A stretch of 32,174 nt of DNA from Chloroflexota bacterium (GTDB lineage Bacteria; Chloroflexota; Anaerolineae; UBA4142): NCBI GenBank assembly GCA_016865935.1, contig VGOB01000038.1, forward strand, positions 1-32,174, written 5' to 3'. The stretch's first letter is position 1, and the number at the start of each line of letters is the position of its first letter. Position numbers and translations under genes: made by a program. Positions 6,604-32,174 of the stretch are shown one piece after another. The notes under the pieces are model-generated. The model was given only the letters and a program-made list of their open reading frames with translations, had not been told where the DNA came from and ran no database searches.

Positions 6604-7350
6604 ATGACCACCACCATTGCGGTTGCCGGCAAGGGCGGCACCGGCAAAACGACCCTATCGGGTTTGCTCACGCGATACTTGATCGAACGTCAGCGCGGCA
6701 AGGTTCTGGCGATTGACGCCGACCCGAGCAGCAATTTGCATCTTGTCTTAGGATTGGCGCTGACGAAAACCGTCGGCGATATTCGCGAAGACGCGCGCGA
6801 TAAAGTTCCGGCAGGAATGGCGCGCCAGGACTGGCTCGATTACGCGATTCGCACCTCCATCGAAGAAGGCGACGCGTTCGATCTGCTGGCGATGGGACGC
6901 CCGGAAGGACAGGGTTGCTATTGCGCGGCGAATCACTTGCTCCGCAACATCGTAGACGGAATTTGCAAGGCGTACGATTTCGTCGTGATGGACAACGAAG
7001 CCGGGATGGAACATCTCAGCCGCCGCACGACGCGCGACGTGGATCACTTGTTGCTCGTCAGCGATGCGAGTATGCGCGGACTGGCGGCGGCGGAAGCGAT
7101 GCTGGCGTTGAGCAAAGAGCTGGAAATCAACGTTCGCCAAACGCACCTCATCGTCAATCGCGTCGTCGGCGATTTGCCGCCCGCGTGGAACGACAAGATC
7201 GCGCGGATGAACGTTCCGTTGCTCGCGCAAATTCCGTACGATCCGCAGCTCGTCGAATTCGATAGCGGCGGACGGCCCCTGGTCGAATTACCCGGCGACG
7301 CGTTGATCAGTCGCGCGGTCAATCAGATCGCGCACAAGTTGTTGGCTTAA
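6604..7350 (+). CDS. cooC: CooC-like CO dehydrogenase nickel-insertion ATPase (MinD/SIMIBI family)
   Basis: Deviant Walker A AGKGGTGKTT; CxC in GQGCYCAANHLL; MDNEAGMEHLSRRT. Confidence 0.8.
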   Translation: MTTTIAVAGKGGTGKTTLSGLLTRYLIERQRGKVLAIDADPSSNLHLVLGLALTKTVGDIREDARDKVPAGMARQDWLDYAIRTSIEEGDAFDLLAMGRPEGQGCYCAANHLLRNIVDGICKAYDFVVMDNEAGMEHLSRRTTRDVDHLLLVSDASMRGLAAAEAMLALSKELEINVRQTHLIVNRVVGDLPPAWNDKIARMNVPLLAQIPYDPQLVEFDSGGRPLVELPGDALISRAVNQIAHKLLA

Positions 7351-7353
7351 CTT

Positions 7354-7443
7354 TGTCATTGCGAGGAGCGTTTTTCGCGACGAAGCAATCTCTAAATCGC
7401 GCACGTCGGGGATTGCTTCGCCGCTACGCGGCTCGCAATGACA
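7354..7443. repeat. Interspersed inverted repeat TGTCATTGCGAGGAGCG...CGAAGCAATC // GATTGCTTCG...CGCAATGACA, copy 1
   Basis: Complementary arms; second copy at 24811-24896. Confidence 0.8.
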
Positions 7444-9554: not shown

Positions 9555-10757
9555 ATGGATCGTCGCGCGATCGCGCTTTTCATTTTCGTTCCGTTCTGCA
9601 AAATCAAATGCACGTACTGCGATTTCAACGCGTACGCGCATTTGTCGCGTTGGATGGGATCGTATGCGGACGCGGTCGTCAAGGAAATTGACAATTGTCA
9701 ATTGTCAATTGTCAATTTTTTCGCGCGGAGTGTTTATTTCGGTGGCGGGACACCGTCGTTGATGCCGGTCGCGTCCATCGAAAAAATTTTGTCTGCCTTC
9801 CAACCTCTAATCTCCAATCCTCCCATCTCTCATCTCGAAATTACGCTCGAAGCGAATCCGGGCGATATTGACGAAGCGAAACTGCGCGCGCTACATTCAC
9901 TCGGCGTCAATCGGTTGAGCATCGGCGCGCAGGCGTTTGACGATGCCGCGCTGCGGCGCTTGAATCGCGGTCATACGGTCGCCGATACGTTGGCGACATT
10001 CGATCACGCGCGGCGCGCCGGATTCGACAACATCAGTCTCGATCTCATTTACGGCTTGCCGCTTCAAACATTGGACGATTGGCGCGCGTCGTTGGAACGC
10101 GCGTGCGCGCTCGCGCCCGAACATTTGTCGTTGTACGCGCTCAAGGTGGAGCCGGGCACCGGGCTGGCGCATCAAATCGCGCGCGGCAAGTATCCTGCGC
10201 CGGATGACGATCTGGCGGCGACGATGTACGAGACGGCGGAAGAAATGTTGGACGCGGCGGGGTACGCGCAGTACGAGATTTCGAATTGGGCTGTTGGCAG
10301 TCAGCGGTCAGCGGTCAGCGGTCAGCGATTAGATTCGCAATTCGCAATTCGCAATTTCCAATCTCAACACAACTTGACCTACTGGCGCAACGAGCCGTAC
10401 CTTGGTTTTGGCGCGGGCGCGCACTCGTCGTTGGGCGGTGAGCGTTTTTGGAATGTCGCGTCGCCGGTGGAGTACATTCAACGCGTCGCGCGTGGCGAGA
10501 GCGCGGTGGCGGGACGCGAAACGATCGCGCGCGAATTGGAAATGGCGGAGACGCTGATCCTGGGACTGCGCTTGAACGCCGGCGTTGCGTTTGCCGATTT
10601 TCGCGCGCGTTTTGGCGAGGACGCGCGCGCGCGCTATGCGCGACAGTTGGCGGAGGCGCGCGCGTTGGGCTTGATCGAATTATCGGATGAACGCGTGCGT
10701 CTGACGCGGCGCGGGCGGTTGCTCTCGAACGAGGTGTTTTGGCGGTTGTTGCCGTGA
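9555..10757 (+). CDS. hemW: HemW / coproporphyrinogen III oxidase-like radical SAM protein
   Basis: CKIKCTYCDFNAY (CxxxCxxC), YFGGGTPS, EANPGDID, RLSIGAQAF, DLIYGLP, YEISNWA. Start at ATG 9555; the longer ORF from 8796 is a spurious extension. Confidence 0.85.
   Translation: MDRRAIALFIFVPFCKIKCTYCDFNAYAHLSRWMGSYADAVVKEIDNCQLSIVNFFARSVYFGGGTPSLMPVASIEKILSAFQPLISNPPISHLEITLEANPGDIDEAKLRALHSLGVNRLSIGAQAFDDAALRRLNRGHTVADTLATFDHARRAGFDNISLDLIYGLPLQTLDDWRASLERACALAPEHLSLYALKVEPGTGLAHQIARGKYPAPDDDLAATMYETAEEMLDAAGYAQYEISNWAVGSQRSAVSGQRLDSQFAIRNFQSQHNLTYWRNEPYLGFGAGAHSSLGGERFWNVASPVEYIQRVARGESAVAGRETIARELEMAETLILGLRLNAGVAFADFRARFGEDARARYARQLAEARALGLIELSDERVRLTRRGRLLSNEVFWRLLP
9686..9719. repeat. Heptamer array CAATTGT inside hemW
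   Basis: CAATTGT CAATTGT CAATTGT CAATT in frame; encodes NCQLSIVNF. Confidence 0.85.
10296..10366. repeat. Composite heptamer array inside hemW
   Basis: GCAGTCA GCGGTCA GCGGTCA GCGGTCA GCGATTA GATTCGC AATTCGC AATTCGC AATTTCC AATCTCA in continuous 7-nt register; encodes SQRSAVSGQRLDSQFAIRNFQS. Confidence 0.85.
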
Positions 10758-15556: not shown

Positions 15557-15715
15557 ATAGTTGGGTAGTTGCGTAGTTGAATAGTTGGCTAGTTGCATAG
15601 TTGGATAGTTCGTCGTTATCTAGGAACCGACTATTGGACTATCCAACTATCGAACTAGCCAACTATCAAACTACCAAACCACTAAACTAACAAACTATCG
15701 AACTATCAAACTATT
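15557..15715. repeat. Inverted octamer array (xTAGTTGx / AACTATCx)
   Basis: Left arm ATAGTTGG GTAGTTGC GTAGTTGA ATAGTTGG CTAGTTGC ATAGTTGG ATAGTTCG; right arm about 11 AACTATCx units ending at the next ATG. Confidence 0.9.
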
Positions 15716-16213
15716 ATGAAATACACTGCGCTCATCAACGACAAAACGTACGAAATCGAAATCGGCGCGAACAATACGGTGGTGGTAAATGGCGAGCCCC
15801 ACAACATAGATTTTCGCACGATTGACGGCGGCGCGCTGTACTCGTTATTGCTCGACAACGCGTCCTGGGAAGCGCTCGTCGATCGGAACGGCGACGAGTA
15901 TCGCGTGTTGATCGGCGGCGAACTGAATGTCGTCGTCGTGCAGGACGAGCGCACGCGCAAAATGGCGAAGGCGGAAGGCACACAAGCCGCGCCGACGGGC
16001 GAAGCGATCATCAAAGCGCCGATGCCAGGTCTCGTGCGCGGCGTAAACGTGAACGTCGGCGACAATGTCGCGGCGAAGCAGGGTGTCGTGATCCTGGAAG
16101 CGATGAAGATGCAAAACGAATTGCGGACGCCGCGCGCGGGCGTCGTCAAGGAAGTGCGCGTGAAAGCGGGCGACAAGGTGGAGCAAGGGCAGGTGCTGGT
16201 CGTCGTCAAATAG
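15716..16213 (+). CDS. Biotin carboxyl carrier protein
   Basis: C-terminal biotinyl domain APMPGLVRGVNVNVGD...VILEAMKMQNEL. Confidence 0.9.
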   Translation: MKYTALINDKTYEIEIGANNTVVVNGEPHNIDFRTIDGGALYSLLLDNASWEALVDRNGDEYRVLIGGELNVVVVQDERTRKMAKAEGTQAAPTGEAIIKAPMPGLVRGVNVNVGDNVAAKQGVVILEAMKMQNELRTPRAGVVKEVRVKAGDKVEQGQVLVVVK

Positions 16214-17648: not shown

Positions 17649-17688
17649 TACAATTTGAGGGTTGAAAGATTGTTTAGGGAGGAATGAA

Positions 17689-19320
17689 TTGTCAGCAACT
17701 ATTCCATCTGAACGCAAGTTTCGCTTTGAAACGCTCTCAGGCATCGAAGCGAAGCGTGTTTACACGCCCGACGACGGCGCGCAGAATTACGACGCGCAAC
17801 TTGGTATGCCTGGCGAGTATCCGTTCACGCGCGGCGTGCAAGCGACGATGTATCGCGGACGCTTTTGGACGATGCGCCAGTACGCGGGTTACGCGAGCGC
17901 GGACGAATCGAACGCGCGCTATAAATATTTGCTCGCGCAGGGACAGACGGGCTTGTCGGTCGCGTTCGATTTGCCGACGCAGACGGGCTACGATTCCGAC
18001 GCGGCGATGGCAGAAGGCGAAGTTGGCAAAGTTGGCGTCGCGATTTCGTCGCTCGAAGATATGGAGCGACTGTTTGACGGCATTCCGCTCGGCAAGGTTT
18101 CGACTTCGATGACGATCAACGCGACGGCGGCGATTTTGCTCGCGCTGTACGTCGCGGTCGCGAAGAAGCAGGGCGCGGACGCGCGGCAATTGCGCGGCAC
18201 GGTGCAGAACGACATTCTCAAAGAGTACATCGCGCGCGGCACTTACATCTTTCCGCCCGCGCCTTCGATGCGACTCGCAACCGACATTATCGAGTTCTGC
18301 GCGCGCGGGGCGTATGGTCATACGCCCCTACAAAATTGGAATCCGATTTCGATCAGCGGCTATCACATCCGCGAAGCGGGTTCGACCGCGGTGCAAGAAA
18401 TCGCGTTTACGTTTGCGAACGCGATCGAGTACGTCAACGCGACGCTCGCGCGCGGCTTGACGATTGACGATTTCGCGCCGCAGTTATCGTTCTTCTTCGT
18501 CGCGCAGATGGATTTCTTGGAAGAGATTGCAAAGTTCAGAGCGGCGCGACGATTGTGGGCGCGCATCGTCAAGGAACGTTTTGGCGCGCAGAAAGCGCAA
18601 TCTATGATGCTGCGCTTTCACACGCAAACGGCGGGCGTCTCGCTCACCGCGCAGCAGCCGCAGAACAACATCGTCCGCACGGCAATCGAAGCGCTCGCGG
18701 CGGTGCTGGGCGGCACGCAATCGCTGCACACGAATTCGTACGACGAAGCGCTCGCGCTGCCGACGGAAGAATCGGTGCAAATCGCGCTGCGGACGCAGCA
18801 AATCATCGCGCACGAATCGGGTGTGACGAACACGATCGATCCAATCGCGGGATCGTACTATGTCGAAAATCTGACGGACGAAATCGAAAAGCGCGCGCGC
18901 GAATATCTCGACAAGATCGAAAAGATCGGCGGCGGCTTGAAAGCGATTGAAGCGGGCTACGTCGCGCGTGAGATTCAGGAATCGTCGTGGAAATTCCAGC
19001 GCGATGTCGAATCGAAAGAGCGCGTCGTCGTCGGCGTCAACGAGTTTGTGGCGGCGGTAGGGGCGAGCGGCCGCTCGCCCCTACTCCGCGTCGATCCGCG
19101 TGTGCGCGATGATCAAGTCGCGCGTTTGCAATCGCTCCGCGCGCGCCGCGACAACACGCGAACGCGGAACGCGTTGAACGCGCTGTGCGATGCCGCGCGC
19201 GGCACGTCGAACCTAATGCCTGCGATTCTCGCGTGCGTCGAAAGTTACGCGACGCTTGGCGAGATTTGCGACACGCTGCGGAAAGAGTTCGGCGAATATC
19301 GCGGCGGAGGAATGTTTTGA
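17689..19320 (+). CDS. Methylmalonyl-CoA mutase, large/catalytic subunit without B12 domain
   Basis: [96 protein letters not shown] start at 17689 after AGGGAGGA. Confidence 0.9.
18307..18328. repeat. Palindrome GGGGCGTATG-GT-CATACGCCCC inside the mutase CDS
   Basis: 10-bp perfect stem, in frame, encodes part of GAYGHTPLQ. Confidence 0.85.
19057..19084. repeat. 28-bp perfect palindrome GTAGGGGCGAGCGGCCGCTCGCCCCTAC inside the mutase CDS
   Basis: Perfect dyad, in frame, encodes VGASGRSPL. Confidence 0.9.
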
Positions 19321-19321
19321 G

Positions 19322-19650
19322 CCACAGAGGACACAGGGGACACAGAGAAAAAGAGGGGTAGATATGAAGACTATGATTCGAACAAACGAGACGGTTGATG
19401 CGAAGAAATTGGTCCGAGTGCTAGAACCAGTGATTCGCAAGATTGTTCGCGAGGAAATCGCGCGAGCCGCCGCGCGAAAGCCAGGAGTATTCTATCTGGA
19501 ACCTGGCGCGCCGCTGTATCAGGACATGGAGCAAATCCTGCGCGAAGCCCAATCTGGATCAGTCAGATTGCTATCGCGCGAGGAGGCGTTGCGTGATCGA
19601 AGGTAGTTTCTCTCGCGTGGTTTTCTCTGTGGTCTCTGTGTCCTCTGTGG
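19322..19650. mobile_element. MITE-like unit: 30-bp imperfect inverted repeats flanking a small ORF
   Basis: Left CCACAGAGGACACAGGGGACACAGAGAAAA (19322-19351); right TTTTCTCTGTGGTCTCTGTGTCCTCTGTGG (19621-19650); 27/30 complementary. Confidence 0.5.
19364..19606 (+). CDS. Small protein, possible antitoxin-like
   Basis: 80-aa charged protein MKTMIRTNETVDAKKLVRVLEPVIRKIVREEIAR...; lies between the inverted repeats. Confidence 0.45.
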   Translation: MKTMIRTNETVDAKKLVRVLEPVIRKIVREEIARAAARKPGVFYLEPGAPLYQDMEQILREAQSGSVRLLSREEALRDRR

Positions 19651-19666
19651 CAAAAGAAAGGTAACG

Positions 19667-20059
19667 ATGCCAACGACGAAAAAGCCAATGCCCAAGTTTA
19701 CCAAAGCGCCCGCAGAAACGGTGCGCTTGTTTGAGAACGCGCTGAAAGATTTTCCAATGGCGACACAGCGCAAGATGTTTGGTTATCCCTGCGCGTTCGT
19801 CAACGGGAATATGTTCACGGGATTATTCCAGGACGAAATGTTTCTCCGCTTGTCCGACGAAGACCGCGCGGCGATTCGCAAAGACGCTTCGCGTGGCACG
19901 CCGCTCTTTGAGCCGATGCCTGGTCGTCCGATGCGGCAATATGTTTTGGTTCCACACTACGTTTTGAAATCACCGCGTCTGTTGCGAGCGTGGCTGACGA
20001 AGGGGATGGAGTACGCCAAGTCGTTGCCGCCGAAGAAACAACGGACGAAAAAGGATTAA
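19667..20059 (+). CDS. TfoX N-terminal domain-family protein
   Basis: ATQRKMFGYPCAFVNGNMFTGLFQDEMFLRLSDEDRA...MPGRPMRQYVLVP. Confidence 0.8.
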   Translation: MPTTKKPMPKFTKAPAETVRLFENALKDFPMATQRKMFGYPCAFVNGNMFTGLFQDEMFLRLSDEDRAAIRKDASRGTPLFEPMPGRPMRQYVLVPHYVLKSPRLLRAWLTKGMEYAKSLPPKKQRTKKD

Positions 20060-20345
20060 GCGGACGCGTGCAAATGAGTTTGTCCGTTCAATCCGATAAA
20101 GTCCGTTGTCATTCCTCCCGCGCTTGTTGCGGACGTGGCTGACGAAGGGAATGGAGTACGCCAAGTCATTGCCGCCAAAATTACAACGGACAAAAGCGAA
20201 TTAAACGGACGCGCGGTTTTGTCCGTTGGCTTTCGCACTTGTCCGTTGTCATCCTTCCCGTGCCTGTTGCGGACGTGGCTGACAAAAGGGATGGAGTACG
20301 CCAAATCGTTGCCGTCGAAGAAACAACGGACGAAAATCCATTAAC
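19978..20345 (+). repeat. Three tandem copies (about 140-145 bp) of the TfoX-like gene 3' end
   Basis: GTTGCG(A/G)(G/A)CGTGGCTGAC(G/A)AA(G/A)GG(G/A)ATGGAGTACGCCAA(G/A)TC begins at 19981, 20126 and 20266. Confidence 0.9.
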
Positions 20346-23056: not shown

Positions 23057-23085
23057 ACTATAATTCACATTCCTAGATTTGTCAA
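23057..23085 (-). promoter_or_regulatory. Sigma70-like promoter for HEPN/MNT
   Basis: On the minus strand: TTGACA (23085-23080), 17 nt, TATAGT (23062-23057). Confidence 0.65.
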
Positions 23086-23102
23086 CGACGACAGGAGGGA
23101 GA

Positions 23103-24785
23103 ATGTTCGACCCACAAGAACTCGCCGCGATTAAACGCGCAAAAGATCGCTGGGAAGAAACGACGCTGCACCAAACGCTCGCGCGTTCGCCTGAACGCCG
23201 CGCGCAATTCATCACGGCATCGTCCGAGGAAATTGATCGCCTTTACACCCCGCTCGATCTCGCGGCGGCGGATTACAATCGCGATATCGCGATGCCAGGC
23301 GAGTATCCGTACACGCGCGGCGTCCACTCCACGATGTATCGCGGGCGTCCCTGGACGATGCGGATGTTCGCGGGCTTTGGCACTGCCGAAGAAACGAACG
23401 CGCGCTTCAAGTATTTGCTCGAACACGGCGAAACTGGGTTGTCCACTGCTTTCGATATGCCGACGCTGTACGGCTACGACACCGATTCGCCGCGCGCGGT
23501 CGGCGAGTTCGGCAAATGCGGCGTCGCGATTTCGTCGCTGGCGGACATGGAAATTCTTTTCGACGGAATTCCTGTTGATGAAGTGACGACTTCGATGACG
23601 ATCAACTCGCCTGCCGCGATCATCTGGGCGACGTACATTGCGGCGGCGGAAAAGCGCGGCATCCCGCGCGCGCAACTCGGCGGCACGCTTCAGAACGACA
23701 TTCTCAAAGAGTACATCGCGCAAAAAGAATTCATCTTCCCGCCGCATCCTTCGATGCGCCTCGTCGTGGACACGATGGAATTCGGCACGCGCGAAATGCC
23801 GCTCTGGAACACGATTTCGATTTCGGGTTATCACATTCGCGAGGCAGGTTCGACTGCCGCGCAGGAACTAGCGTTCACGCTCGCCGATGGGATGGAGTAC
23901 GTGCGGTGGGGGATCGCGCGCGGGATGAACGTGGACGATTTCGCGCCGCGCCTCTCGTTCTTCTTCAACGCGCACAACGATTTCTTCGAGGAGATTGCAA
24001 AATACCGCGCGGCGCGGCGCATCTGGGCGCGCTGGATGCGCGAAAAAACTGGCGCGCAGAATCCACGTTCGTGGCTGATGCGCTTTCACACGCAGACCGC
24101 AGGCGTCTCGCTCACCGCGCAGCAGCCGATGAACAACGTCGTCCGCGTCGCGCTGCAAGCACTGGCGGCGGTGCTGGGCGGGACGCAATCACTGCACACG
24201 AATTCGCTCGACGAAGCGTGGGCGCTGCCCAGCCAGGACGCTGCCACAATCGCGCTGCGGACGCAGCAGATCATCGCAAACGAGTCGGGTGTGACGAACA
24301 CGGTGGACCCGCTCGGCGGCGCGTACTTTGTCGAAGCGCTGACGAATCGGATGGAGCGCGAAGCGAACGCGTACTTTGATCGCATTGAAAAAATCGGCGG
24401 CGTGCTGCCCGCGCTCGAAAAAGGATTCTTCCAGCGCGAAATCGCGGAGAGCGCGGCGCGCTATCAAACCGAAATCGAAAAGAAAGAGCGCGTCGTTGTC
24501 GGCATCAACGATTACGTCGTGCAAGAAGAACTAAAAGTGCCGCTGTTGCGCGTGGATGAAGCGGGCGCGCAACGCCAAATCGCGCGCTTGGAAAAAATTC
24601 GCCGCGAACGCGACGCGGTGAAGGTTGGCGCGTGTCTCGACGCAGTGCGCGACGCGGCAAAAAAGGAGCGCGCGAACCTGATGCCGCCGTTCATTGCCGC
24701 CGTGAACGCGTACGCGACGCTCGGCGAGGTGATGGACGTGCTGCGCGGCGTGTGGGGCGAGTACAAGGAGCCAGTGATAGTTTAG
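23103..24785 (+). CDS. Acyl-CoA mutase large subunit, isobutyryl-CoA mutase-like by active-site residues
   Basis: MutB-like throughout; MRMFAG and [10 protein letters not shown] carry F/Q at the positions corresponding to MutB Y89/R207. Confidence 0.8.
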
Positions 24786-24810
24786 AGATTGAAGATTAGA
24801 GATTGGAGAT

Positions 24811-24896
24811 TGTCATTGCGAGGAGCGTTTTGTGCGACGAAGCAATCCCCAACTCGCGGCTTGGAGATTGCTTCGCAAAAAACGCTCGCAATGACA
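24811..24896. repeat. Interspersed inverted repeat TGTCATTGCGAGGAGCG..., copy 2
   Basis: Same arms as 7354-7443. Confidence 0.8.
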
Positions 24897-24908
24897 CGGG
24901 GAGGAAAC

Positions 24909-25406
24909 ATGGACAACGAAATCATCGCGCAGATGTACGACTACGGCATCTGGGCGAATCGCAAGTTGTTGGACACGGCGAGTACGCTTTCGGAGCGACG
25001 ATTGCGTAAACCATTCACCCAATTCGAATTTACGATCCTGGGTTCGTTCGCGCATCTCGTCAGCGCGGAATGGCGCTGGCTGCAAGCGTGGAAAGGCGAG
25101 CCGATGACGGAACGTCTCACGGTTGACGATTTGCCGACGCTCGACGCGGTGCGCGCGAAATGGGAGCCGCTGTTCGCGGAACGCCGCGCGTTCATCGCGT
25201 CGCTGACGCCCGAACACTTGGCGCAACCGATTGTGCGGAAAGTGCAGGGGCGCGAGCAGGGCATCATCCTGTGGCACGCGCTCGTCCACGTCGCGAATCA
25301 CGGCACGCAGCATCGCAGCGAAATCGCGCTGATGCTGACCGACCTGGGACAGTCGCCCGGCGATTTGGATATGGTCTGGTATTTTTTAGAGCAAGGCGGA
25401 ACGTGA
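24909..25406 (+). CDS. DinB-family protein
   Basis: MYDYGIWANRKLLDTASTL...ILGSFAHLVSAEWRWLQAW...HVANHGTQHRSEIALML. Confidence 0.85.
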   Translation: MDNEIIAQMYDYGIWANRKLLDTASTLSERRLRKPFTQFEFTILGSFAHLVSAEWRWLQAWKGEPMTERLTVDDLPTLDAVRAKWEPLFAERRAFIASLTPEHLAQPIVRKVQGREQGIILWHALVHVANHGTQHRSEIALMLTDLGQSPGDLDMVWYFLEQGGT

Positions 25407-27868: not shown

Positions 27869-27960
27869 ACGGTGAACAGTGAACAGTGTTCAGTATTCAG
27901 GATTCAGACCGAACACTGAACACTGAACACTGAATACTGAATGCTGAATGCTGAATGCTG
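27864..27960. repeat. Inverted heptamer array AGTGAAC/GAACACT/GAATGCT
   Basis: AGTGAAC GGTGAAC AGTGAAC AGTGTTC AGTATTC AGGATTC ... GAACACT x3 GAATACT GAATGCT x3. Confidence 0.95.
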
Positions 27961-28987: not shown

Positions 28988-31900
28988 ATGCCACAGGACA
29001 TTTCTAGGTTACGAATCTTTGTCGCTTCGCCGGGGGATGTGAAAGACGAACGCGACCGGCTTGGGCGCGTCGTGGAACATTTGCGAACTCACGTCGCAGC
29101 GCAGTATGGACTGGATTTGGAACTCGTGCGTTGGGAAACGCACATGCGCCCGGGGGTTGCCGCTGACGCGCAAGCCGTTGTCAATCCACAGATCGGCGCT
29201 TACGATTTGTTCATCGGCATTTTGTGGAATCGTTTCGGCACGCCGACCGGGCGCGCCGAATCCGGTACCCGCGAGGAATTCGATCAGGCATACGCGCGCT
29301 GGCAAAAAGATCCGGATAGTTTGGAAATCTGGATCTATTTCAGCAAGCAACCGTTCAACTTTACCGCGCCGCAAGAATTGGAACAGAAAACCAAGGTATT
29401 GGCATTCCGACAGGAATTGCAGACAGTCAAAGGGTTTCTAACGTGGGAGTATGCTACCCTGGCTGAGTTTGAAGAGCAGGTGCGCGGTCATCTGGAATCG
29501 TTCATTCCCAAACACGCGACTCTGGCAAAACCACTGCCTCGTCCTGCGTCTCCACTTGCCTCATCAATCGCCCCAACCAAACTCCACGCCGGGTATCTGC
29601 GCCGCGTCCAAACGACGTGCAACGCGCTGCCGCTCGCGGTGATCGATCCGCGCGCCGTCGAACGCACGCGCCAACAAACGATGGATTTGCTCGCGGTCTA
29701 CGTCGCACTCAACACGCAGACGCCGGCGCCGCTGACCGAAGAGGAACTCAAAGAGAAGCAAACGCGCGCCCGGCGCGAAGAAATGCCGGACGCGGCGCGC
29801 GAAACGCGGCTTCTCACCGCGCTGCAAGCCGCCGCGCGCGAACGGCAAATGGTTCTGCTCGGCGATCCGGGCGGCGGCAAGTCCACCTTTGCGAATTATC
29901 TCGCGCTTTGTCTTGCCGGCGCGCAGTTGGAAGCGTTGGGCGAGACCGGCGCGCTGCCTGGGCAAAACTGGCTCAAGTACCTCCAACCCGCGTGGACGCA
30001 CGGCGCGTTGCTCCCTCTGCAAATCGTCTTGCGGCATTTTGCCAAGAGCGATCACTGCAACGGCACCGCGGCGGGGCTGTGGAATTTTATCGCGCAAACC
30101 CTGGACGCGCAGTCGCTTGCCGATTACGCGCCGTACCTCCAGCAGCGTCTGCACGACGGCGGCGTGCTGGCGCTGTTCGATGGGTTGGACGAAGTGGCGG
30201 ACGCGACCAAGTCGCAAGCCGTGCGCGACGCGGTGCGCGAGTTCGCTCAGACCTACGGACATCCCGCCAATCGTTTTCTGGTGACTTGTCGCGGCTATGC
30301 GTACCAAGACGCGCGTTGGCAGTTGGATCATTTCGCGATTTACACTCTCGCCGCGTTCGATCAAGCGCAGATTGATGCATTCATCGGCTGTTGGTACAAA
30401 GAGGTCTGTCGGCTCGGTTGGAAGAGTGAAACCGAGGCGGAGGAGTTGACGGGACGATTGCAGGAGGCGACGCGCCGGACCGATCTCGCGCCGCTGGCAA
30501 AAAATCCACTCCAGTTGGCGATGATGGCGTCGCTGCACTTTTCCTGGGGACGCCTGCCGGACGATCGCGTCGAACTGTACCAAGAAATGGTGCGGCTACT
30601 CCTCGTGCGTTGGCAGGAAGCGCGCCTGGGACAAGAAACCGGCGTGACGCAATTGGTGCGCGCGGGCGAATTGGAATCGGCGTTAGAGCGCGTCGCGTTC
30701 GTCGCGCACCGCAGTCAGCAAGGCACCGAAGGCGCGGCGGACATCAGCGAAGCGATGCTCCGCAGTGTGTTCAAGGATTGTTTGGAGGGCGATTGGAATC
30801 GCGCCGGAGAAATGGTGACGTTCATCCAAGACCGCGCCGGACTGCTGATTGATCGCGGGAAAGGAACGTACACTTTTCCGCATCGCAGTTACCAGGAATA
30901 TCTCGCCGGTTCGTACCTGGCGGTGCAGCCGGACTTTCCGGATCAGGTCGCGGACTTGGTGCGCGCGAACTATGCCCAGTGGCGCGAGGTCGCGCTGTGG
31001 GCGGTCGAAGTGATGGCGCGTCTGAAAAAGATGGTTCACGTCGCGGTGGACGTTGCCGCCGCGCTCTGCCCGCGCGAATCACCCGGCGCGCAAGAACCCG
31101 AGATCGAATGGCGCGCGGCGCACCTTGCCGGTGAAGCGCTCGTCCAGATCGGGTTGGAGCGCGTGAACGCGCACGTGCTCCACAGCCAGGTGGTGGAACG
31201 CGTGCGGTGTTGGCTGGTCGCGCTGCTCGAACGCGGCGTCTTGACCCCCGCCGACCGCGCGGCGGCGGGACGCACGCTCGCGCACCTGGGCGATCCGCGT
31301 CCCGGCGTTGGCGTCACCCTTCCCCTGTCGAAGACGGGGGGAGGGACGGGGAGGGGGGTGCCTGATATCGTCTGGTGCGAAGTGCCCGCCGGAGAATTCG
31401 TAATGGGCACGCGCACAGAGGACATTGCCGCCCTGATGAAGAAATATGGCGGCGATCGCGATTGGTACGAGTACGAAACGCCGCAACTCAAACTCAATCT
31501 GCCTGCATTTCTCATCGCCAAGTATCCGTTGACGAACGCGCAGTTCGACGCGTTTGCGCGCGCGGACGGTTATCGCAATGAACGATATTGGACGGAAGCC
31601 ATCGCGCAAGGTTGGTGGCAAAAGGACGGATTCAAAGGGCGATTCGATGAACAACGGCGCGATCATCCCTACGATTTGGGCGCACCGTTCAATTTGCCAA
31701 ATCATCCGGTTGTGGGTATAACGTGGTACGAAGCGCTCGCGTTTTGCCGCTGGCTCACGGAGAGATTTCAGATTTCAGATTTCAGAATTCAGATTGAAAA
31801 GATCGTTGACCGTGATTTGCAATCCGCAATTCGCAATTCGCAATTTGCAATTCGATTGCCCACTGAAGCGGAATGGGAAAAAGCCGCGCGCGGCTCTGAG

Positions 31901-32174
31901 GGTCGAATCTTTCCGTGGCAGGGTGAACTGACGCCGCAACACGTAAACTACAGCGAGACGAACATCGGCGCGACGAGCGCGGTTGGGAGTTTTCCGTTAG
32001 GCGCATCGCCGTATGGCGCACTGGATATGAGCGGCAACGTCTGGGAATGGTGTAGCACCAAGTGGATCGAGAACTATAAAGACTATGCCAAGCGCGCCAA
32101 AGAGCGCGAGAATTTGGAAGGTACGGATTACCGGGTTCTGCGCGGCGGGTCGTTCGACTTCCTTCAGTACTACG
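28988..32174 (+). CDS. DUF4062-like - NACHT STAND NTPase - FGE-sulfatase protein, 3' truncated by the window edge
   Basis: Continuous open frame read by eye to the last base. RIFVASPGDVKDERDRL; Walker A LLGDPGGGKST; Walker B LALFDGLDEVAD; C-terminal VPAGEFVMGT...RLPTEAEWEKAARG...GNVWEWC...YRVLRGGSF. Confidence 0.85.
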   Translation, partial: MPQDISRLRIFVASPGDVKDERDRLGRVVEHLRTHVAAQYGLDLELVRWETHMRPGVAADAQAVVNPQIGAYDLFIGILWNRFGTPTGRAESGTREEFDQAYARWQKDPDSLEIWIYFSKQPFNFTAPQELEQKTKVLAFRQELQTVKGFLTWEYATLAEFEEQVRGHLESFIPKHATLAKPLPRPASPLASSIAPTKLHAGYLRRVQTTCNALPLAVIDPRAVERTRQQTMDLLAVYVALNTQTPAPLTEEELKEKQTRARREEMPDAARETRLLTALQAAARERQMVLLGDPGGGKSTFANYLALCLAGAQLEALGETGALPGQNWLKYLQPAWTHGALLPLQIVLRHFAKSDHCNGTAAGLWNFIAQTLDAQSLADYAPYLQQRLHDGGVLALFDGLDEVADATKSQAVRDAVREFAQTYGHPANRFLVTCRGYAYQDARWQLDHFAIYTLAAFDQAQIDAFIGCWYKEVCRLGWKSETEAEELTGRLQEATRRTDLAPLAKNPLQLAMMASLHFSWGRLPDDRVELYQEMVRLLLVRWQEARLGQETGVTQLVRAGELESALERVAFVAHRSQQGTEGAADISEAMLRSVFKDCLEGDWNRAGEMVTFIQDRAGLLIDRGKGTYTFPHRSYQEYLAGSYLAVQPDFPDQVADLVRANYAQWREVALWAVEVMARLKKMVHVAVDVAAALCPRESPGAQEPEIEWRAAHLAGEALVQIGLERVNAHVLHSQVVERVRCWLVALLERGVLTPADRAAAGRTLAHLGDPRPGVGVTLPLSKTGGGTGRGVPDIVWCEVPAGEFVMGTRTEDIAALMKKYGGDRDWYEYETPQLKLNLPAFLIAKYPLTNAQFDAFARADGYRNERYWTEAIAQGWWQKDGFKGRFDEQRRDHPYDLGAPFNLPNHPVVGITWYEALAFCRWLTERFQISDFRIQIEKIVDRDLQSAIRNSQFAIRLPTEAEWEKAARGSEGRIFPWQGELTPQHVNYSETNIGATSAVGSFPLGASPYGALDMSGNVWEWCSTKWIENYKDYAKRAKERENLEGTDYRVLRGGSFDFLQYY
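31315..31360 (+). repeat. G-rich imperfect palindrome in frame between NACHT and FGE regions
   Basis: CACCCTTCCCCTGTCGAAGACGGGGGGAGGGACGGGGAGGGGGGTG. Confidence 0.75.
31763..31860. repeat. 14-unit heptamer array inside the FGE domain
   Basis: AGATTTC x3 AGAATTC AGATTGA AAAGATC GTTGACC GTGATTT GCAATCC GCAATTC x2 GCAATTT GCAATTC GATTGCC in unbroken 7-nt register. Confidence 0.9.

Follow-up and report, generated by a model that had tools for sequence, protein, structure and literature searches.

The hemW locus

We analysed a 32,174-nucleotide stretch of Chloroflexota DNA (hereafter, the window), in which a gene on the forward strand (9555–10757) encodes a predicted 400-amino-acid radical SAM heme chaperone, HemW, in an intact frame. 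In a profile search, the protein scored 293.7 bits against TIGR00539 (curated cut-off 205.4). Its motifs include CxxxCxxC (as CKIKCTYC at residue 15), GGGTP and HNxxYW (as HNLTYW at residue 272), the last of which has been implicated in heme binding by HemW (PMC11834973). The nearest solved fold is that of HemN (1olt, TM 0.81). Of the 14 family genomes, 11 yielded HemW, including the one studied here; the remaining three are incomplete assemblies without a good match. The orthologues in the 10 further genomes are 65–77% identical to it, and our alignment combines family members with sister-family and class outgroups.

The original prediction held that this gene carries three in-frame insertions of different short-repeat units, either tolerated or functional. 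Three in-frame repeat stretches are indeed present in an intact HemW, as judged by the family model, the motifs and the substitution rates. Over nine genomes, the frames are open and dN/dS in the core of the protein is about 0.1–0.2. These values reject the pseudogene that the prediction had itself raised as a possibility, and HemW is under purifying selection. Between relatives, dN at the array sites is about 0.55–1.05, versus 0.10–0.21 in the core.

Site 1 is an array of 4.6 copies of AATTGTC on the forward strand (9686–9717, found by TRF; residues 44–55). In an AlphaFold (AF2) model of the protein (mean pLDDT 93.7, built from 45 homologues), it is placed at the C-terminal end of a predicted helix (residues 31–51) and in the loop that follows. 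The segment from CxxCxFN to GGGTP is 37 amino acids long, which equals the modal length in the outgroups. The array therefore occupies or replaces native sequence, with no net insertion. Homologues have unrelated native sequence of equal length at this place, an observation that the original prediction had named as speaking against it, so site 1 cannot be called an insertion. The repetition itself is clear: the period-7 scores of the segments with sites 1 and 3 are 22 and 23, respectively, versus a maximum of 15 among 2,102 control windows of 96 nt from outgroup HemW genes, 99% of which score 7 or less.

Heptamer arrays occur at site 1 in 7 of the 11 family genomes with differing units. In addition to AATTGTC, these are AAAATTC, CAAATTA, CAGATTG, GCAATTC, GTAATTC/GAAATTC and CAGATTT in relatives. 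All seven arrays share a common 7-nt phase, starting from native GARATT codons (Glu-Ile). Where heptamer arrays are missing, we found a REP-like palindrome (L002), an element resembling one with terminal inverted repeats (L010) or native sequence (L008). The L010 element is MITE-like and in frame, has inverted ends AAGGGCGAAGCATTCG / CGAATGCTTCGCCCTT, and adds about 24 amino acids.

Site 2 is a decayed array of the CCAATCT type on the forward strand (9800–9836; residues 82–94), which the model places in a loop joining a helix (72–86) to a strand (95–100). The segment that holds it is 27 amino acids long versus 25 native residues in nearly all genomes, so that only two residues are gained. Its own period-7 score is 7, and this array would not stand alone as evidence. 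Its heptamer origin is supported by three relatives in which the CCAATCT array at this position is clearer (scores of 20 in L002, 22 in L003 and 11 in L012).

Site 3, between YEISNWA and HNLTYW, consists of two adjoining forward-strand arrays. The first is four copies of GTCAGCG (10300–10327, found by TRF; residues 249–258), and the second is an ATTCGCA array (10333–10363) that runs into CCAATCTC shortly ahead of the HNxxYW motif. Here the protein has 26 amino acids, versus eight in the sister family f2 and most outgroups. Family members that could be measured in full have 19–37, and site 3 is therefore a true net insertion. Arrays with differing units occur at this site in at least 8 of the 11 family genomes, and they form inverted pairs in L002, L005, L008 and L010, such as (AAGTTGG)n..(CCAACTT)n in L008. 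The GTCAGCG unit family is restricted to the genome studied here and the sister genome G001. Given that the HemW gene of G001 lacks this unit at site 3 and carries a different one there, the GTCAGCG array is probably a recent arrival.

Thus, in-frame repeats were confirmed at all three sites, with the qualifications that site 2 is decayed and site 3 contains two arrays, and the prediction of insertions fails for site 1, holds for site 3 and holds hardly at all for site 2. Several unrelated repeat classes have been accepted at one place in HemW, and a permissive site is therefore the best description.

Heptamer arrays across the genome

To the window we added 20 stretches of 20 kb, which gave a genome sample of 432 kb. 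It contains 115 period-7 arrays under tolerant settings, versus 0–30 for other periods except the multiple 14 (80), and 58 exact period-7 arrays versus none in a Markov control. With a simple home-made gene caller, we defined 361 genes in the sample. The arrays avoid them: 31 are internal to genes (361 kb of coding DNA) versus 84 in non-coding DNA or at gene edges (71 kb). This corresponds to densities of about 0.09 and 1.2 per kb, or a roughly 14-fold lower density in coding DNA. The internal arrays are spread over about 20 of the 361 genes, and at least 3 of the 31 reflect GC-rich codons of low complexity and are not clear satellites.

Among 24 neighbouring array pairs, 10 are inverted-complementary (6/7 or better), versus 3% of random pairs. 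We observed that such pairs correspond to hairpins with 7-nt periodic arms, both in L033–L050 and in G294 (L180 and L181). Somewhat more intergenic units (50 of 51) than shuffled ones (41 of 51) lack stop codons on one strand or both. This tendency, which might have pointed to selection of units for being stop-free, is not clear in the edge arrays and was set aside. As 7 is not divisible by 3, all three frames of an array without stop codons read as one heptapeptide, and the array is open throughout on that strand. The survival of such an array in a gene would thus be set only by its net length (3n) and by the tolerance of the fold.

Several arrays lie elsewhere in the window. On the forward strand, a histidine kinase gene (176–922) contains 4.4 copies of AGCGGTC (650–680) within its HATPase_c domain, and arrays of AGATTTC (31763–31793) and GCAATTC (31819–31852) are inside the FGE-sulfatase domain of the gene at 29039–32173. 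An array with a period of 14, i.e. twice 7, covers the 3′ end of a response-regulator gene and the spacer after it (2047–2081), and a GAATACT/GAATGCT array is located at a gene boundary (27911–27960).

The window also contains repeats of other kinds. Period-8 arrays, ATAGTTGG / CCAACTAT, at 15557–15610 and 15638–15714 form an inverted pair of 52 nt that lies upstream of the gene at 15716, and period 8 shows a smaller genome-wide excess. A 140-bp tandem repeat present in 2.6 copies (19973–20336) duplicates the 3′ end of the gene at 19688–20059 and the following spacer. A separate repeat family, inverted repeats of the CCACAGAGGACACAGG type, flanks a small gene (19321–19351 and 19621–19651). Related sequences at about 7350–7440 and 24790–24910 encode peptides of the LEIAS..KTLAMT type, in the latter case at the extended N terminus of the gene at 24789. 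The genes at 17662–19320 and 23079–24785, about 5.5 kb apart, are presumably paralogues of a methylmalonyl-CoA mutase-like large subunit.

Distribution in the family and phylum

Arrays matching the pattern CAATNNN occur in all 14 genomes of the family. Across the phylum, we found them in 55 of 400 Chloroflexota genomes, in patchy bursts of several hundred. In 83 kb of a sister-family genome (G014), we found two arrays, each at the edge of a gene. In G427, the richest genome by pattern, we read short contigs, and no arrays occur on those contigs. Period-7 arrays of the reversed control pattern, TAACNNN, are abundant in some other Chloroflexota (G121, G196 and G371) and recall TAACTGA repeats.

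Individual units can have a much narrower range. GTCAGCG has 66 matches in the genome studied here (G000), 19 in the sister genome G001 and none in the 12 other family genomes. Its places in G000 include HemW, ParB and the histidine kinase. This restriction to two genomes suggests a recent spread.

In 24 genomes, neither Y1_Tnp (Y1 transposase) nor RVT_1 (reverse transcriptase) was associated with the abundance of arrays. Y1_Tnp is absent from the array-rich genomes G294 and G343, and 15 copies are present in array-poor G287. Since neither domain tracks array abundance, neither is identified as the driver.

Other conserved genes with arrays

Arrays were found in genes for ParB, FtsY, a HemD/CobA fusion, SsnA, ArgH, FemAB, the histidine kinase, the FGE-sulfatase protein and HemW. 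ArgH, SsnA and FtsY score above the cut-off on curated family models, with a match that spans the array. Sites at which arrays recur while their units turn over are HemW sites 1 and 3 and those in ArgH, FtsY and ParB. We also observed in-frame REP-like palindromes at the same protein sites in HemW (L012 and L003), FtsY (L147) and ParB (L158 and L163). Examples are CCTTCGGCTTCGCTCAGGACAAG and CCTGAGCGGAG..GTCGAAGG, and they are sometimes nested within heptamer arrays (L012, L003 and L147).

The region of the ArgH array is 31 amino acids long in all 17 genomes that we read, whether an array is present or absent. Within a genome, the identity of the array to itself at a shift of 7 is 0.76, versus 0.64 between orthologous positions of different genomes. 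In the flank this relation is reversed (0.21 within and 0.71 between genomes). These figures are descriptive and come from one gene, a hand-chosen window and eight array-bearing genomes; within that scope, they would be a signature of concerted evolution. The amino acids of the native ArgH helix already follow a heptad pattern, which may have favoured such a process. By the same token, part of the 7-nt periodicity could reflect similarity among the codons of this pattern.

Origin of the arrays

A meaning specific to HemW, or a regulatory one, was dropped as the main reading because the arrays occur genome-wide. We consider it likely that the HemW stretches belong to a heptamer satellite that is dispersed, evolves fast and resembles the short tandemly repeated repetitive (STRR) sequences; it would be seeded and homogenised in place and kept only where the frame and fold survive. 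Beside the spread, recurrence, turnover and coding depletion that we observed, we infer that seeding would depend on short similarity. Arrays would start where the native DNA already resembles the unit (GARATT at HemW site 1 is an example), either by template switching driven by microhomology or by ectopic gene conversion from other arrays. They could then expand, contract and become homogenised through slippage or local conversion. Purifying selection would clear most arrays from coding DNA, and the survivors would be found in linkers, loops and helices with a compatible pattern. A bolder version, in which homology-driven copying rewrites short protein stretches with the dominant heptamer of the genome at constant length, acting as a concerted mutator even in the structured ArgH helix, is possible, and we lean against it.

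Local replication slippage alone would have each array arise from a chance near-duplication of 7 nt, with no exchange between sites. Slippage has been proposed for heptamers, the most abundant class of simple repeats of 5–11 nt in most genomes surveyed, according to previous studies recounted in PMC4679880, and the single phase in which HemW site-1 arrays start from GARATT is compatible with it. However, one unit is present at dozens of sites and missing in relatives (GTCAGCG; 101 versus 6 in the control), which requires dispersal, and slippage alone alters length, whereas the ArgH stretch has the same length everywhere. We regard this explanation as unlikely. Even less probable is the transposition of a discrete small element resembling REPs, MITEs or Rickettsia palindromic elements (RPEs), with heptamer arrays as its ends. 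It would account for the excess of inverted array pairs, which extends to HemW site 3 in four relatives and to intergenic DNA in G294, and for the REP-like palindromes nested in arrays. Yet neither a constant core nor constant ends nor a target-site duplication was seen, and many arrays have a single arm. Insertion does not agree with the unchanged lengths where arrays replace sequence in ArgH and at HemW site 1, and the distribution of Y1_Tnp, which is most abundant in array-poor G287, argues against transposition.

The arrays might alternatively have been retained for a purpose, with the site-3 loop tuning heme binding or a partner contact in the family. Site 3 does directly adjoin the HNxxYW motif (PMC11834973), and almost every family member has this site occupied. 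However, its sequence, unit, orientation and length vary freely, the segment is predicted to be disordered, and other members of the class have an unrelated insertion or none. We consider this very doubtful, and the functional half of the original prediction finds no support, since neither the unit, the encoded peptide nor the length is conserved. The array-encoded peptide probably has no dedicated function. Tolerance, the other half, agrees with the purifying selection on HemW, the free variation among relatives, the other repeat classes at these sites and the structural model, in which pLDDT values below 50 are limited to residues 251–264, within the site-3 arrays. As to an artefact, the assembly is a draft of 322 contigs, but these sites also hold arrays in assemblies that different projects made independently, and the arrays are far shorter than a sequencing read. 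With the open frames and low dN/dS, the chance that we are dealing with an assembly error or a pseudogene is practically negligible. A dispersed satellite that is homogenised in place thus remains our preferred reading.

Relationship to known repeats

Known heptameric repeats include the STRR sequences of Calothrix and Nostoc, GGGGA(C/T)T in Nostoc and GGGAATC in Xanthomonas (Rehm 2015, PMC4692102). Like STRR sequences, the arrays have tandem units of 7 bp in few copies, are dispersed genome-wide, are mostly intergenic and are lineage-specific. The Nostoc unit CCCCAAT even fits the CAATNNN pattern for which we searched, a likeness of units only. Unlike STRR sequences, many units coexist here, they change over short phylogenetic distances, and arrays recur at coding sites in conserved enzymes. 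They are also not of the G-quadruplex type as a class. TAACTGA direct repeats in marine Beggiatoaceae are patchy across phyla, encode a repeating heptapeptide and occur in some ORFs (MacGregor 2015, PMC4679880); the stop-codon side of the three-frame property was also remarked for them (PMC4679880). However, TAACTGA is a single unit whose coding cases are mainly at protein ends, whereas the units described here vary and lie inside ArgH, FtsY, SsnA and HemW.

RPEs are about 150 bp long, have a conserved palindromic sequence and occur in frame in conserved genes (PMC10969869). The arrays resemble them in being in frame in unrelated conserved genes (ArgH, FtsY, ParB, SsnA, HemD, HemW, HATPase and FGE), but are simple heptamer arrays of about 20–90 nt, are often length-neutral and show unit turnover. 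We found no palindromic core or ends that would be shared as in a discrete RPE-like element; units differ across the sites and genomes compared. PARCELs, a 25-residue motif in ORFs without an assigned function, many of them membrane-targeted (PMC2996958), likewise combine repeat coding DNA, dyad symmetry and intragenomic shuffling, but are not found in housekeeping enzymes.

Hence, heptamer simple repeats and in-frame repeats in conserved genes are already known (PMC4692102, PMC4679880, PMC10969869). In the literature searched, no paper dealt with heptameric tandem repeats in Chloroflexi. As far as this literature shows, what is new is that heptamer arrays occur throughout a family at set positions in conserved enzymes, while their units turn over and the protein length often stays the same.

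Among the long simple repeats of many bacteria, heptamers are the most common, but they have mostly been regarded as intergenic curiosities. Here, they occur inside about 1 gene in 20, conserved enzymes among them, at the same sites in successive relatives and with the units replaced each time. This amounts to an experiment of nature that bears on where proteins tolerate being rewritten, as well as on the way in which simple repeats disperse and become homogenised. It also calls for caution in annotation and structural work, in which such segments should not be taken as functional motifs. In this uncultured Chloroflexota family, simple repeats are a recurrent source of protein change.
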